DNA of 64,000 bases, taken from positions 502 through 64,501 of the forward strand of contig NZ_AZEE01000028.1 in NCBI RefSeq assembly GCF_001434895.1, given 5' to 3'. The position numbers and the translations under genes were made by a program. This document shows positions 6,590-58,200 of this stretch, in pieces. The stretch comes from Secundilactobacillus odoratitofui DSM 19909 = JCM 15043 (GTDB taxonomy: Bacteria; Bacillota; Bacilli; Lactobacillales; Lactobacillaceae). The notes under the pieces were generated by a model. That model saw only the letters and a list, made by a program, of their open reading frames with translations. It did no database searches and had not been told where the DNA came from. Numbering within the stretch: the first letter of the stretch is position 1; each line of letters starts with the position of its first letter.

Positions 6590-6836
6590 ACTTGAATCTA
6601 TTAAAGACTGATGAGGACTATTAGGTTTAGTGAGCTGTTCAGAAAGCGGATGGTTGTTGTGAATTCGCCAGTTTATTAACCGAACTCGTCTCGGAGTTAT
6701 TTCAACTGAACTGAAGTAAGTTGAAACGTGATTTTCACGTTACGAAATATTGAGCGCCCGTGCAATCGGGAATGTTAGGTGGTACCGCGGAAATTCCGTC
6801 CTACAAGAAACGTTGGTTTCTTGTAGGCTTTTTTAG
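6590..6836 (+). ncRNA. T-box leader of leuS
   Basis: The invariant T-box AGGTGGTACCGCGG lies around 6776-6790. Upstream an AGTGAGC-type motif and a long stem I precede a specifier region in which CTC at 6685-6687 is the likely leucine codon. The terminator is the stem cctacaagaaac/gtttcttgtagg ending in a T run at about 6830. Uncharged tRNA-Leu is expected to favour antitermination into leuS. Confidence 0.93.
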
Positions 6837-29092: not shown

Positions 29093-29280
29093 ACGGAGGG
29101 TTAGCGGGTCGTTTGGGTTGCAGTGATAAGTACCACTTAACGCTGTGCGTTTAGTGGTACTGGACGATATTGAGACCCACGGGGTTTGTGGGGCTCAGTA
29201 TCGAGGTGTAAGACACGTGGTTATCGTGGCTGAAGCCGGTCCCACAGCAGCTCAAACGACCCGTTAACCCGTAGTGGCAT
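29093..29280 (+). ncRNA. Candidate structured RNA, copy A of four
   Basis: The closing helix P1 is 29098-29121 with 29247-29270: 24 pairs, three of them G-U. Inside are P2 (29129-29161, arms AGTACCACT and AGTGGTACT), P3 (29165-29203, arms CGATATTGAG and CTCAGTATCG with one internal A-G mismatch) and P4 (CACG/CGTG near 29214-29228). Between helices lie the conserved AGTGATA, GGA and CCGGTCCCACAGC (29236-29248). No coding potential or poly-T tail was seen. The family is shared with 38730, 56760 and 57270. Function unknown. Confidence 0.75.
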
Positions 29281-38729: not shown

Positions 38730-38910
38730 TCGGCCGTAGCGCGGACGGTCAGGGGTAACCTGTAGTGAAACGACAGGGGGACCCAGTCGGGGACGAAGTT
38801 GAAACGTGCATGGGGTTTGGCACGGTTCAACTTCGAGGTCCGAGACCTAGGCTCGGACCGGCCCCACAGCAGGTTGCCCCTGACCGGGAGCCGAAGGCAT
38901 CTTACGGCTG
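38730..38910 (+). ncRNA. Candidate structured RNA, copy B of four
   Basis: P1 is 38746-38762 with 38870-38886 (17 pairs, one G-U). Then come TAGTGAAA, a short P2 (CGAC/GTCG, about 38771-38789), P3 (GAAGTTGAA with TTCAACTTC, about 38795-38834, again with the A-G mismatch), P4 (GGTCCGAG/GCTCGGACC, about 38837-38859) and GGCCCCACAGC before the closing strand. An outer helix GGCCGTA (38732-38738) with TACGGCT (38903-38909) may extend it. It lies between the terminators of two convergent genes. Confidence 0.72.
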
Positions 38911-54420: not shown

Positions 54421-55353
54421 TCAAATTTGGCTATCATCGGCCAGTTGTTGTAACATACCCATTAAACTAGCCTTAATGGCACCTTCGGGTAGGGCATTCG
54501 CATCTAAACGAGTTTGACTGATGAGTTCACCAGCCAAACTAGCAGCAGATTTTTCACCAGCTTGAATCGTAAGTTTTCGAGCCGTATAAAAGGCATCTGA
54601 GGTTGGTTTTTCTTGCGCACCAAAGAAGTGGGTGAACCACTCGGACTCTTCTTCAAACCCAAACAATAAAGATAGGGGATAATCGCCCATCAGCAATCGA
54701 GTTCGAAAATCCAAGCTATCGTGAGTCTGATTGATATCAGTTAAAATTCTTGCAATCACACCGAGGGTCTCACCAATAGTAGCAATGAGATCAATGATTG
54801 CCCGATCCGTCATGCCACCACTGATGGCCGCAAGTCGACTCGTAATTGAAGTTAGAGCGCCATCACGCACCTTGGCATCCTTTAAGTAATCAGCAACCCG
54901 CTCTCGTTGATTGAAATTCAGCTGCAGTCGCGTACTGTGTGACAGCCAGAAATTTTGGGCATCATCAAGTAAATTTTGCCGTTCTTCTGCTTGAATTGAA
55001 CTACCCGCGATATTGATCACGAACTGGCCATAGAGGTATTGCGCATCATAACTCTGAGCTTTACTCATCGCAATATCACTTGGTGTAACCCGACTGGGCT
55101 TAAACGTTGCCGGAATCAGCGCACTAGCAAGGGCTAACAGTTCGGTTGACTGCGCGAAGTTAGCCGCATTTGACAGCGGTTGTTGAGCCGTTTGCTGAAA
55201 AATCGTCCACAAAGCCTGTCTGAACCGGCGATCATTATCTAACGCCAAGTTACTGATTGGTTCACGCACAGAATCTGGTAATTGCTGACACATGGCTTGG
55301 AAATCGTCTTCTAGTGCAACATCGGCAACATAATTATCAGGATCAAACCCCAT
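54421..55353 (-). CDS. Degenerate polyprenyl-synthase-like protein, 310 aa
   Basis: By eye the all-helical sequence follows the trans-prenyltransferase fold. STELLALASALI stands where the first helix normally ends in DDxxD, YLKDAKVRDGALTSI where the lysine-threonine motif lies, LGVIARILTDI where the second DDxxD lies, and DFRTRLLMGDYPLSLLFG where D-x-x-x-GK-x-T-x-P is usual. Both aspartate-rich motifs are lost, so classical prenyl transfer seems impossible. It is the last gene of a three-gene operon. The fold assignment is an inference. Confidence 0.6.
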   Translation of the reverse strand: MGFDPDNYVADVALEDDFQAMCQQLPDSVREPISNLALDNDRRFRQALWTIFQQTAQQPLSNAANFAQSTELLALASALIPATFKPSRVTPSDIAMSKAQSYDAQYLYGQFVINIAGSSIQAEERQNLLDDAQNFWLSHSTRLQLNFNQRERVADYLKDAKVRDGALTSITSRLAAISGGMTDRAIIDLIATIGETLGVIARILTDINQTHDSLDFRTRLLMGDYPLSLLFGFEEESEWFTHFFGAQEKPTSDAFYTARKLTIQAGEKSAASLAGELISQTRLDANALPEGAIKASLMGMLQQLADDSQI

Positions 55354-55367
55354 TGTTAAGCCCCCAG

Positions 55368-56354
55368 TTAGTTTGCAAATTTGTCCAATTCCGTTGAAAA
55401 CTGTTCAGCCACCGGAATGAAGACATCTGTGAAGTAGTGGTTGAGGTCGACAGCTTGTTTGGGTGTCTCTAACGCTTTTTGTGCACGCTGGAAGGCATCG
55501 TTGCGCATGTTGATAATCATCATCTTCTTTTGATGACGAAGATGTTTAATTGCCTTATCAGCATTATCCATGCCGCGAGCTTTTTCGATGAAGTAGTACA
55601 TGATTTCATAAAACGTATTATCCAGCACCCAAAAGAGGGTATTGCGTAATACACGATCATTCATCACTTGGGCAAACAAGTTGTCGCCAACGATTTCATG
55701 TTGGGTGAAACTGGCAGCTGACATGACCACGGCCTGTACTTCGTGCATGTCGGCCATAAAGTGGCTAAAGTGGGTGAGATCCGTATCTTTTAGTGGATAG
55801 CCCAGATTCTTTTCACGTTCATCCGGTGTCATTGTCGAAAAGTTATTGTAGTATTCAGATTGAACGTCCGCAGCATCCGTTAACAAATCACGTTCAATTC
55901 CCAGTAAAATTGCCTGGTTTTGGTCTAAATATTGGTTAACTACGTCCCAAATTTTCGGGAATTGATCATTAAACTGGTCAAATAAGGCGTTGGTCGTACC
56001 GACAACCTCTTTTTGAACTTTCGCTTTTTCAACGTGAGGGGCAAATTGAACCACCATCGGAATGGCATCGTCATCATGATTTAAGCCGGCCTCTTGACGA
56101 TGATTATTTTCGTAATCTTTTAATTCTTCCAAACTCAACAGTCCAAGTGGCATCACGTTAATTTCGCCATTGGTCGTCATAATTTGCAGCGAAAATGGGG
56201 TATCAGCATGTTGATTCATCGTTAAAGACTTTAAGGTCTCAAGTAATTTACTCCGGGTACCCAAAGCATCCTCCGGGTCGGCATAAAACCCAGAGGTATA
56301 AATGGCAATATTATCGTACTTAGATGCTAATTTCTGTTGAACATCCATCTCCAT
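55368..56354 (-). CDS. Unknown protein, 328 aa
   Basis: Not recognised. A soluble, acidic, mainly helical protein: a mixed N-terminal part of about 75 residues (YTSGFYADPEDALGTRSKLL, then short strands), and a long helical part with many paired hydrophobics (VLDNTFYEIMYYFIEKARG). No catalytic signature or signal peptide was seen. It lies 13 bases after the small first gene and 14 before the prenyl-synthase-like gene, so the three proteins probably act together. Confidence 0.65.
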   Translation of the reverse strand: MEMDVQQKLASKYDNIAIYTSGFYADPEDALGTRSKLLETLKSLTMNQHADTPFSLQIMTTNGEINVMPLGLLSLEELKDYENNHRQEAGLNHDDDAIPMVVQFAPHVEKAKVQKEVVGTTNALFDQFNDQFPKIWDVVNQYLDQNQAILLGIERDLLTDAADVQSEYYNNFSTMTPDEREKNLGYPLKDTDLTHFSHFMADMHEVQAVVMSAASFTQHEIVGDNLFAQVMNDRVLRNTLFWVLDNTFYEIMYYFIEKARGMDNADKAIKHLRHQKKMMIINMRNDAFQRAQKALETPKQAVDLNHYFTDVFIPVAEQFSTELDKFAN

Positions 56355-56367
56355 CAGTGTTTCCCCC

Positions 56368-56634
56368 TTATGCTTGTGAAGCTTCGATCAGCGCTTGCAA
56401 TTTCTGCTGACCACTCTCGGTAAGTGTTGCTTGACTTAGATCAGCACTGGCCAGTGAACTACTGTAGCTGTTGTCTAATTTTGCATCGGCGAGATAGCCG
56501 GCTTGATAGGCTGCTTTAATGGTGGTGTAAAGCATTGAATCTGGGTTCAGTTGACGACCCTGATTGAAGCGATGTGCATTGACATCGTTTAAAACGCCCA
56601 TTAGTTCTTCATCTTGACTTACATTGTGTGCCAT
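56368..56634 (-). CDS. Small YjcQ-like winged-helix candidate, 88 aa
   Basis: First gene of the operon. The pattern TTIKAAYQAGYLADAKL followed by ADLSQATLTESGQQKLQAL resembles the helix plus wing and T-x-x-G end of small YjcQ/DUF2513-like proteins, which suggests a DNA- or protein-binding role. This is weak evidence. The ribosome site is AAGGAGTAA just before the ATG at 56634. Confidence 0.6.
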   Translation of the reverse strand: MAHNVSQDEELMGVLNDVNAHRFNQGRQLNPDSMLYTTIKAAYQAGYLADAKLDNSYSSSLASADLSQATLTESGQQKLQALIEASQA

Positions 56635-56759
56635 TAGTGTTACTCCTTCCAGTCGCTGTATTTAGCTTTAATTTTACCTATAATTGCTGGGTTTAAACAT
56701 AGGGGGATAGCCTAAACTTATAAGTTCTCCGTGCAAATACTATGGCAATGTTAGATAAG

Positions 56760-57000
56760 TTAATGGCGCCTTCGGCCGCCAGCAACTTGGTTTTGGGGTG
56801 GTGGCTGTGGGACCGGCTGCAACCGCTTCGCGTTTTCCGCCTCGGGTCCAAGCCTTGCTGAGGTGCACAAGTCTTTGACCCGTCCAATGATGTAAGGGTT
56901 AAGCAACACGAACTGAAAGTCACTGTTCGCATGACTTAACCCCAACATCATTTTTCACTGTCACCACCCCAAAACCAAGTTGCTTTTGGCACTACGGCTA
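56760..57000 (-). ncRNA. Candidate structured RNA, copy D of four
   Basis: Read on the minus strand. P1 is 56962-56983 with 56782-56803, 22 perfect pairs. It is followed by ACAGTGAAA, an enlarged P2 (arms AATGATGT and ACATCATT around an extra GGGTTAAG/CTTAACCC stem), GGA, P3 (GGGTC/GACCC with A-G mismatches), a P4 block almost identical to copy C (AACGCGAAGCGGTTGCAG) and CCGGTCCCACAGC. On the plus strand the left flank holds a CCTTCGGC hairpin. It lies upstream of the unknown three-gene operon but is 126 bases from it. Confidence 0.75.
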
Positions 57001-57130
57001 CTTTTAATGAATTGGCTATGTATGTTTGTTAAAAAGGATTAATGTAACTGTAGAAAACATCATATCATTAATAGATTCGAAGTTTTGATTAATTAAAAAT
57101 TTAGAGATTTGTGTGATTGTAAGCCCAATT

Positions 57131-57268
57131 ATGTTAACAAAAAGGAATTTTGATCATCTCTAGATTGATGTCTTTGCCAACCAAGTTTATTTTGCAGATG
57201 AGAATGATACAGAATTTTCTAAATTGCTACGACTCGGATTTATTGAGCTAGTAACGACTTCTTGGTAA
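57131..57268 (+). pseudogene. Small decayed ORF with internal TAG
   Basis: A 46-codon frame with protein-like composition (IDVFANQVYFADENDTEF, then SKLLRLGFIELVTTSW) is broken by TAG at 57161-57163 after MLTKRNFDHL. No ribosome site is obvious. It may be the tail of a lost gene between two structured RNA copies. The family is not recognised. Confidence 0.35.
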
Positions 57269-57269
57269 C

Positions 57270-57455
57270 GAAAACGGAGGGCTAGCGATCTGGGCTAGTT
57301 GCAGTGACAAGTCAATCTTTGCGCTTCAGCGCTTAGATTGACTGGACAGTTTTGAGACTCGACCTTGAGGCTCAAAACTGAGGTGGAGAACGCAAAGCGG
57401 TCGCAACCGGTCCCACAGCAACTAGCCCAGATCGCTAGCACGTAGTGGTAGTGGG
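57270..57455 (+). ncRNA. Candidate structured RNA, copy C of four
   Basis: P1 is 57281-57302 with 57418-57439, 22 perfect pairs. Inside are AGTGACA, P2 (AGTCAATCT/AGATTGACT, 57310-57343, capped by GCGC-TTCA-GCGC), GGA, P3 (57347-57380, CAGTTTTGAG/CTCAAAACTG with the A-G mismatch), P4 (AACGCAAAGCGG) and CCGGTCCCACAGC (57407-57419). Flanks AACGGAGGG and CGTAGTGG are shared with copy A. It is convergent with the nre operon, whose terminator lies about 40 bases downstream. Confidence 0.77.
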
Positions 57456-57491
57456 CGTTAAAGCAATGTAAACTTTCCCAGAGGAAACACA

Positions 57492-57525
57492 ATAAAAAAA
57501 GCGTACTAGCAAAATGCCAGTACGC
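57492..57525 (-). terminator. Terminator of the Moco-nre operon
   Basis: On the minus strand GCGTACTGGC pairs with GCTAGTACGC around a five-base loop (one mismatch) and is followed by seven T residues. Confidence 0.92.
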
Positions 57526-57546
57526 AAACAAAATGATTGCAAGAAT

Positions 57547-58200
57547 CTATAAATCAATTAATTTGTTATGAATCGCGTAACGAATCAGTTCGGCGCGATT
57601 TTTCAGATGCAATTTCTGCATAATATTAGCCTTGTGGGCCTCAACCGTTTTGGTCGAAATAAACAACTCAGCTGCAATTTCCTTATTAGAGTAGCCAAGT
57701 GTGATTAATGGTAAAACTTCACTCTCACGTTTGGACAAGCCAGCATAACCATCGAGGTTAACAGCGGTGCCATCGGTGTTAATTTTGGCCAAGTCATCAG
57801 TGGTGAGCTTGATGTTTTTATCCACGTACTCTTGACCGTTCATGAGTTGACGTAGCGCTTTGAGTAATTCATCGTCCGAGGAACTTTTCAGCACGTAGGA
57901 CATAGCGCCATTATGCAGTGCTTGATTGATGTATTCCTGTTCTTCGTGCATCGATAGTATCAGAATACGGACGTTGGCAAAATTGTCATGGATTCGCTTG
58001 GTCGTAATCAAGCCACTTTCCCCAGGTGGCATGCTGAGATCCATAATTAAAATATCGATGTCGCCTTGCTCCACTCGTAGATAAGTTTCGGTCCCGTTAG
58101 CGGCCTCGTCAACGACGTTAAACTCAGGTTGCTTATTAACGAGTGTTGACAAGCCATAACGGACCACCGCATGGTCATCTGCAATTAAAACGTTATACAT
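57547..58200 (-). CDS. nreC: Response regulator NreC
   Basis: A 217-residue NarL/LuxR-type regulator. The receiver domain has IADDH at the start and phospho-acceptor Asp54 in LIMDLSMPPGESGL; the C-terminal LuxR helix-turn-helix is LTLGYSNKEIAAELFISTKTVEAH. It is paired with NreB 14 bases upstream and NreA, which together control nitrate respiration genes in staphylococci and lactobacilli. It is the last gene before a strong terminator. Confidence 0.92.
   Translation of the reverse strand: MYNVLIADDHAVVRYGLSTLVNKQPEFNVVDEAANGTETYLRVEQGDIDILIMDLSMPPGESGLITTKRIHDNFANVRILILSMHEEQEYINQALHNGAMSYVLKSSSDDELLKALRQLMNGQEYVDKNIKLTTDDLAKINTDGTAVNLDGYAGLSKRESEVLPLITLGYSNKEIAAELFISTKTVEAHKANIMQKLHLKNRAELIRYAIHNKLIDL

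Follow-up and report, generated by a model that had tools for sequence, protein, structure and literature searches.

A divergent pair of structured repeat arms beside nreC in Secundilactobacillus odoratitofui, probably one copy of a dispersed composite repeat

Why does a single intergenic gap in the genome of Secundilactobacillus odoratitofui hold the same structured element twice, once on each strand? The gap (positions 56635-57546 of the window, the 64,000-nucleotide stretch of DNA that was analysed) separates nreC from an operon of three genes (310, 328 and 88 aa; 54421-56634), none of whose products has a Pfam match. The initial annotation had reported here two copies in opposite orientation, D and C, pointing away from each other on either side of about 270 bases and differing entirely in their closing helices. 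All of this was borne out: D lies on the minus strand and C on the plus strand, their 5' ends face each other across the spacer, and the closing helices differ, yet each stays complementary (Table 1). We consider that D and C are probably one copy of a dispersed, non-autonomous composite repeat, which would move as a whole unit and whose folded strand would be selected.

Table 1. Parts of the D/C unit, its neighbours and the two further copies in the window (window coordinates)
Feature	Position	Strand	Remarks
Composite unit, 695 bp	56765..57459		arm D (type II, minus), spacer and arm C (type I, plus)
Arm D, type II, long-P2 copy	56765..56999	minus	core 56791-56974; closing helix P1 to 56781-56984
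Outer motifs of arm D	56988-56999 and 56765-56780	minus	AGCCGTAGTGCC and GGCGGCCGAAGGCGCC, respectively
Spacer between the 5' ends of D and C	57000..57264		265 bases
Arm C, type I, short-P2 copy	57265..57459	plus	core 57288-57432; closing helix P1 to 57281-57439
Outer motifs of arm C	57265-57280 and from 57440	plus	GTAACGAAAACGGAGG and ACGTAGTGGTAGTGG, respectively
Terminator-like hairpin with T-tract, end of convergent nreC	57494..57525	minus	about 35 bp past the 3' end of arm C
NreC-like response regulator gene, 217 aa, C side	57547..58200	minus	Pfam Response_reg, GerE
First gene of the D-side operon, 88 aa	56368..56634	minus	without Pfam match
Copy A, type I, core	29107..29261	plus	without scored partner
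Copy B, type II, sequence-divergent, core	38749..38883	plus	without scored partner

In a search for ORFs of 80 aa or more, none lies inside the gap, and the decayed small ORF that the initial annotation placed between the arms is thus unconfirmed. A repeat finder recovers inverted arms at 56794-56855 and 57368-57429 that are 79% complementary. The 13-base motif alone, allowing up to three mismatches, occurs 14 times in the window against 10.4 expected, which is not above chance, so what stands out is the fold. In several Secundilactobacillus genomes the 88- and 328-aa genes remain next to nreC. The stretch that separates D from the 88-aa gene contains TAGGGGGATAGCCTA (56700-56714), with the D/C unit just upstream; by eye this sequence fits TAGGGNNNNNRCCTA in four congeners, of which one has an empty site, and in a fifth it is degenerate. 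It resembles what we take to be the NreC box, so the uncharacterised operon downstream may be under NreC control.

D and C are copies of one covarying multi-branched fold. This was confirmed with a covariance model (R1), for which ten short-P2 copies and a structure supplied by hand were the input. In the window it recovers C and A, which were in the training set, at 6.3e-32 and 1.6e-28, and D and B, which were not, at E values of 9.7e-24 and 2.8e-13; it also gives one lower antisense match on C (39.9 bits). The arm is closed by the long helix P1, followed by a GUG:CAC step behind an A mismatch and a hairpin, P2, of two length classes. Further in, a GGA:UCC helix encloses P3 (...GAGAC/GGCUC...) and P4 (GGC-GGA-...-GAA-GCC), with the block CCGGTCCCACAGC. 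RNAalifold applied to 19 copies found 39 pairs, 27 of them showing compensatory change. Among the ten training copies, 96.7% of cells are paired, 32 of the 54 pairs have two-sided changes, and the covariation score of 0.537 compares with 0.167 for shuffles (none of 500 as high) and at most 0.106 for slid controls. For 39 matches from congeners and other genera, in an alignment (A4) that was fitted to the model and includes at least one antisense shadow, two-sided changes occur in 50 of the 54 pairs, and the same type of count gives 538 cells against 149 for shuffles and at most 93 for slid controls. G-U and U-G combinations outnumber A-C and C-A by 148 to 41 in the 94 of 150 aligned rows from this genome that contain CACAGC (the 56 left out being antisense shadows and divergent copies), which indicates that it is the modelled strand that folds, either as RNA or as single-stranded DNA.

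Copies of this fold are numerous. The S. odoratitofui genome has at least 136 model matches, or at least 132 once four overlapping shadows are dropped, and these are lower bounds, 150 of 1201 candidates having been scored. Two arms less than 1.5 kb apart account for 88 of the 132 scored copies, in 44 pairs, and all 44 have the minus copy on the left and the plus copy on the right, as D and C do; the cores of paired arms are 105-365 bases apart. A scored partner was missing for the other 44 copies, two of which gained one when their loci were scanned more finely. Outer motifs set the arm types, which we assigned by text patterns made for this study: type I (GTAACGAGAACGGA … GGAGTGGTAGTGGC), type II (AGCCGTAGYGCC … GGCCGAAGGCGGC) and a near-identical type III, with three of the 44 singles left untyped. 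The 44 pairs comprise 32 of make-up I/II, five II/II, five with a type III arm and two with an untyped arm.

The distribution of the repeat is broad and very uneven. Within the genus, 10 of 15 genomes have matches, with 0 to at least 136 copies each; apart from S. odoratitofui and one congener (G013, discussed below), the other 13 genomes hold 0 to 6. In a sample of the family, 80 of 397 genomes match, in 9 of 40 genera, and full scoring of four family genomes gave at least 150, at least 148, 54 and 32, the counts for genomes G323 and G300 being lower bounds too. A sample of the order yielded matches in 9 of 198 genomes from three families. Six of the loci outside the family were examined: at three of them, streptococcus-like by gene order and with genes recognised by eye, the copy is co-directional between glyQ and glyS, purL and purF, or infB and rbfA-like genes, and in the remaining three loci, copies and neighbouring genes have opposite orientations.

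At D and C no Rfam family reaches its gathering score. RF02616 (SSRC8_2) scores 30.2 bits on a longer stretch containing C and 20.2 bits on a shorter one, against a gathering score of 72; its matches all lie below that score, at 20-52 bits, the best relative reaching 52.2 and none of seven genomes exceeding the threshold. Its model aligns at positions ~145-210 with the P3-P4 core, both in C and in copies from other families of the Lactobacillales. Excerpts of PMC3675131 describe SSRC8 as a Streptococcus pyogenes RNA detected on Northern blots and mapped by RACE, whose homologues in other streptococci match within its positions 142-250. The segment of SSRC8 conserved in streptococci is the part it has in common with the D/C-type repeat. 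The likeness is confined to this core and to sub-threshold scores. SSRC8_2 would be a weak relative, and it is the sole Rfam family that we accept as such. Because only SSRC8_2 recurs in the copies of other families (five matches, from 4 of 12 sources), the other Rfam matches were read as chance. These include sub-threshold matches at D and C to microRNAs, RsaOG, rli61, the L20 leader, snoRNA, atpB and HOTTIP_2, of the kind that long hairpins produce by chance, and the plant microRNA MIR5998, which on the other strand of the shortest stretch scores higher (31.6 bits, E 2.3e-5) than SSRC8_2 does (20.2 bits). A 1.9-Mb genome of another family in the order sample (G510) has 30 sub-threshold SSRC8_2 matches, apparently a repeat family there too.

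The copies in S. odoratitofui sit mainly beside the 3' ends of genes. Of 131 arms, 85 face a gene 3' end, at a median distance near 108 bases, and 14 of the 44 pairs lie between convergent, 27 between tandem and three between divergent genes; these counts use ORFs called by our own script, with no genome-wide baseline computed. By a hairpin-plus-T rule of our own, 59 of the 132 copies have a terminator reading towards the arm beside the arm's 3' end, against four in the control, a shuffle mean of 4.3 and 16 in the opposite orientation. In G013 the figure is 14 of 22 (control 1, shuffle mean 0.6, opposite orientation 4), the 22 being copies from 30 loci that matched the end pattern with enough flank, and the T-tract of the terminator lies 0-12 bases from the arm 3' end. 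This adjacency may reflect targeting or tolerance, which the data do not separate.

The best-surviving alternative is that each arm is a non-coding RNA gene of the host: the two genes of a pair would be transcribed divergently, outward from the spacer, would be retained because they serve the cell, and would have multiplied because the RNA is useful in many transcripts. Such genes would account for the strand-specific pairing, for residues that are invariant outside the helices, for compensatory differences seen by eye at sites shared with congeners, for the co-directional copies between operon genes outside the family and for the weak kinship with an RNA that, according to the excerpts of PMC3675131, has been detected experimentally. 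However, neither arm type has a conserved motif at a fixed distance upstream that could serve as a promoter (48 type I and 67 type II flanks), the terminators found at the 3' ends mostly point the other way, the spacers have no sequence common to all pairs, and empty alleles exist within a genus whose copy numbers vary as widely as described above. We therefore regard this explanation as unlikely.

Less probable still, and to our minds very improbable, is that these are DNA-level chromosome elements which, like BIMEs, act through gyrase, a nucleoid protein or transcription insulation and are selected for their position rather than moving. The preference for gene 3' ends and the rarity of pairs between divergent genes agree with such a role, as does a strand trend along the G323 chromosome: among the 136 matches listed, minus copies outnumber plus copies at 0.3-1.2 Mb and plus copies outnumber minus copies from 1.8 Mb, as if orientation were tied to replication or gene direction. 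The asymmetry of G-U over A-C, in contrast, is that of one folding strand and not of a symmetric cruciform, and elements kept for chromosome function do not sit easily with the near absence of copies from most genomes of the genus or with empty alleles.

The two arms of a pair are inherited together. In a comparison of core similarity restricted to the 88 paired arms, the nearest neighbour is of the same arm type in 78 of 88 cases (shuffle mean 38.2, maximum 54), and in none of the 88 is it the arm's own partner. When one similarity matrix was drawn up for each arm of the 32 I/II units, the two matrices were correlated (Mantel r 0.573), with a permutation maximum of 0.349 and none of 5000 permutations as high. 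By a second, weak statistic, the nearest neighbours of both arms fall within a single other unit in 6 of the 32 cases (permuted mean 1.0, maximum 7), and D/C is among these six, its sister pair being C4:133086-133638 of the same genome. Same-type neighbours and agreeing matrices together argue that the pair spreads as one unit. Exceptions occur elsewhere: neighbours less than 1.5 kb apart among the 136 matches listed for G323 comprise nine minus-plus, two minus-minus and one plus-minus arrangements. At the ahpF site of two congeners, two copies stand in direct tandem ~90 bases apart (L160 4779-5145, L175 4752-5155).

These relationships bear directly on whether the nreC gap is a permissive hot spot that took up two single elements independently, or whether one element made a local inverted duplicate of itself. 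Single copies do exist and, as shown below, the interval has been reused; yet an arm that is never closest to its own partner, two arm types with congruent relationships and 44 divergent pairs out of 44 make either event unlikely, and we give this explanation scarcely any credence. D/C as a single travelling unit also differs from the island suggested in the initial annotation, in which the elements would have been carried: the divergent pair is itself what is repeated, 44 times in this genome.

The same interval varies among congeners, nine nreC loci having been compared, six of which have the 88-aa gene. The distance from the nreC stop to that gene is 912 bp in S. odoratitofui, 1335 bp in S. 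mixtipabuli (G007), 421 bp in G001, 381 bp in G014, 183 bp in G003 and 95 bp in G005, and in four of the five comparable congeners the interval is empty or reduced. S. mixtipabuli has a divergent pair of another subfamily, G014 a single copy like the right arm of that pair, and G001 what by eye appears to be a short deletion remnant. No element is apparent in the intervals of G003 and G005; the whole genome of G003 lacks matches, and the three matches of G005 are on other contigs. So the place seems to have been used more than once, or its occupant replaced. The suggestion that the elements travel thus gains the empty alleles it called for, and the opposite finding, both elements fixed at this place across distant species with no empty allele, was not made. 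Of the proposed hot spot, the reuse of the place stands, and the independent capture of D and C is unlikely. Target duplications, which had been proposed as a check, were not recognised at the borders of the 44 pairs (by longest common word, by eye) or of 11 units from G013 (by eye); common words of four to nine letters at the borders of the 44 pairs were taken as chance. A small ORF on the minus strand of the S. mixtipabuli interval resembles, by eye, a YefM/Phd-type antitoxin.

When the 28 genes flanking 15 low-copy congener sites were compared with 88 element loci of S. odoratitofui, three matched the AhpF locus (80%), all from one shared site (L125), three others matched a relative at 48-49% and the rest matched nothing; most congener sites therefore hold no scored copy in this genome. 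Of 80 loci from an NreC-based scan of named genomes, 39 were searched with the model and gave four copies: the nreC pair of S. mixtipabuli, and one copy each in Companilactobacillus kedongensis and Levilactobacillus koreensis.

The ends of the unit are clearest in the congener G013 (listed as 93% complete and 7% contaminated), which has 80 matches; those examined all belong to one subfamily, and they are a recent expansion. A search for inverted ends recovered 11 units with ends 740-881 bp apart (TTGTGTCCAGCGTAAGCAT … ATGCTTACGCTGGACACAA), the ends being present by construction. The end motif, with at most one mismatch, occurs 157 times in G013 and not once in the 14 other genomes of the genus. 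The 11 units (758-899 bp, GC 0.50-0.54) have no consistent ORF, their longest being 55-129 aa, and in the one that was folded the left arm has a different or very diverged structure, without a model score. No autonomous copy appeared by eye among 100 of the 157 ends, that is, no inverted ends 1.5-5 kb apart. Terminal inverted repeats are not evident in the units of S. odoratitofui, in which type I and type II ends differ.

Units in G013 often abut terminator T-tracts, and at 54 ends the six positions that follow the arm end on its own strand are 59-85% A. Such arms, ending directly before an A-tract and showing no target duplication, recall a retroposed RNA set by target-primed reverse transcription against T-rich 3' ends, but both outward ends of one unit can show the A-tract and a single RNA copy leaves the co-inheritance of an inverted pair unexplained, so that this origin seems most improbable.

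The composite repeat that we favour would consist of two inverted, non-identical arms, I and II, each a multi-branched fold on the outward-reading strand, around a freely varying spacer. It would multiply whole within a genome, presumably by means of an enzyme acting in trans on its ends, and most of its insertions would lie next to gene terminators and few between divergent genes, a placement that may do little harm. Once inserted, the repeat seems to keep its fold through compensatory changes, to judge by eye from a few sites shared between congeners: at ahpF, yhgE and adhE, differences in P1 and P2 preserve pairing, although both neighbouring genes are common only at ahpF, and the left neighbours differ at adhE and partly at yhgE. 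These differences at fixed sites suggest selection on the fold after insertion, or else continued replacement. A fold so maintained would imply that further mobility, or a role in read-through transcripts, requires the folded strand in the form of RNA or single-stranded DNA. Structure kept at fixed sites exceeds what a dead parasite needs, and this is the counterpoint to reading D/C as a repeat. More doubtfully, these features may define a new class of mobile unit, with large folds set head to head, the folded strand as the substrate of mobility, placement against terminator T-tracts without target duplication, and an ancestry in common with dispersed structured RNAs across the Lactobacillales, SSRC8 included.

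Among known systems, the D/C-type repeat appears to behave most like BOX, RUP and SPRITE, and it resembles REPINs in being an inverted doublet. A REP arm is a short, simple hairpin that depends on the RAYT Y1 transposase, whereas the arm here is ~200 nt and multi-branched. The Y1 transposase domain (Y1_Tnp, PF01797) has no match in S. odoratitofui; it is found in 7 of the 15 genomes of the genus, with no evident relation to copy number. Insertion next to terminators is also seen in elements of the group IIC intron kind, whose 5' end abuts the terminator, whereas here it is the arm 3' end that abuts a convergent terminator. The likeness to REPINs, as excerpted from PMC3116915, lies in an inverted doublet that multiplies as a pair, here in the invariably divergent arrangement and the Mantel correlation. 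The sections of PMC3049150 on BOX, RUP and SPRITE of Streptococcus pneumoniae describe high-copy intergenic repeats with a predicted RNA fold, enriched between convergent genes, sometimes transcribed and judged parasitic with slow turnover, and BOX-type families with larger end modules in S. suis. The repeat resembles BOX in being high-copy and intergenic with a predicted RNA-like fold, but BOX, compared by that description, is one composite of boxA, boxB and boxC, whereas two complete inverted folds and a free spacer are found here. Measured against the MITE definition given in the same sections, it is short, apparently non-coding and multi-copy, with inverted ends in those G013 units that were selected by them, but it has a GC content near 0.5 and is not AT-rich, shows no target duplication and carries a large covarying fold. 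As tested, it fits neither the REPIN nor the MITE definition in full. A survey of bacterial stem-loops (PMC2267715) has, in its excerpted text, L. johnsonii as its only Lactobacillus. Our literature search found no description of a repeat family of the D/C type in lactobacilli; it was not exhaustive, and absence is unproven.

Most small repeats of bacteria are plain hairpins. The D/C-type repeat has carried a complex, strongly covarying fold of ~200 nt to more than 100 places in one genome. Two of every three scored copies belong to a pair, always divergent and in most cases made up of two arm types. The copies amount to hundreds of natural variants that preserve the structure, and they allow a direct test of whether selection in a mobile DNA element can act on the structure of RNA (or single-stranded DNA). 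A further consequence is that intergenic 'sRNA candidates' of lactobacilli and streptococci may be copies of the repeat. Elsewhere in the window are a SAM-III (SMK box) riboswitch at 2575-2668 and a T-box leader at 6601-6806.
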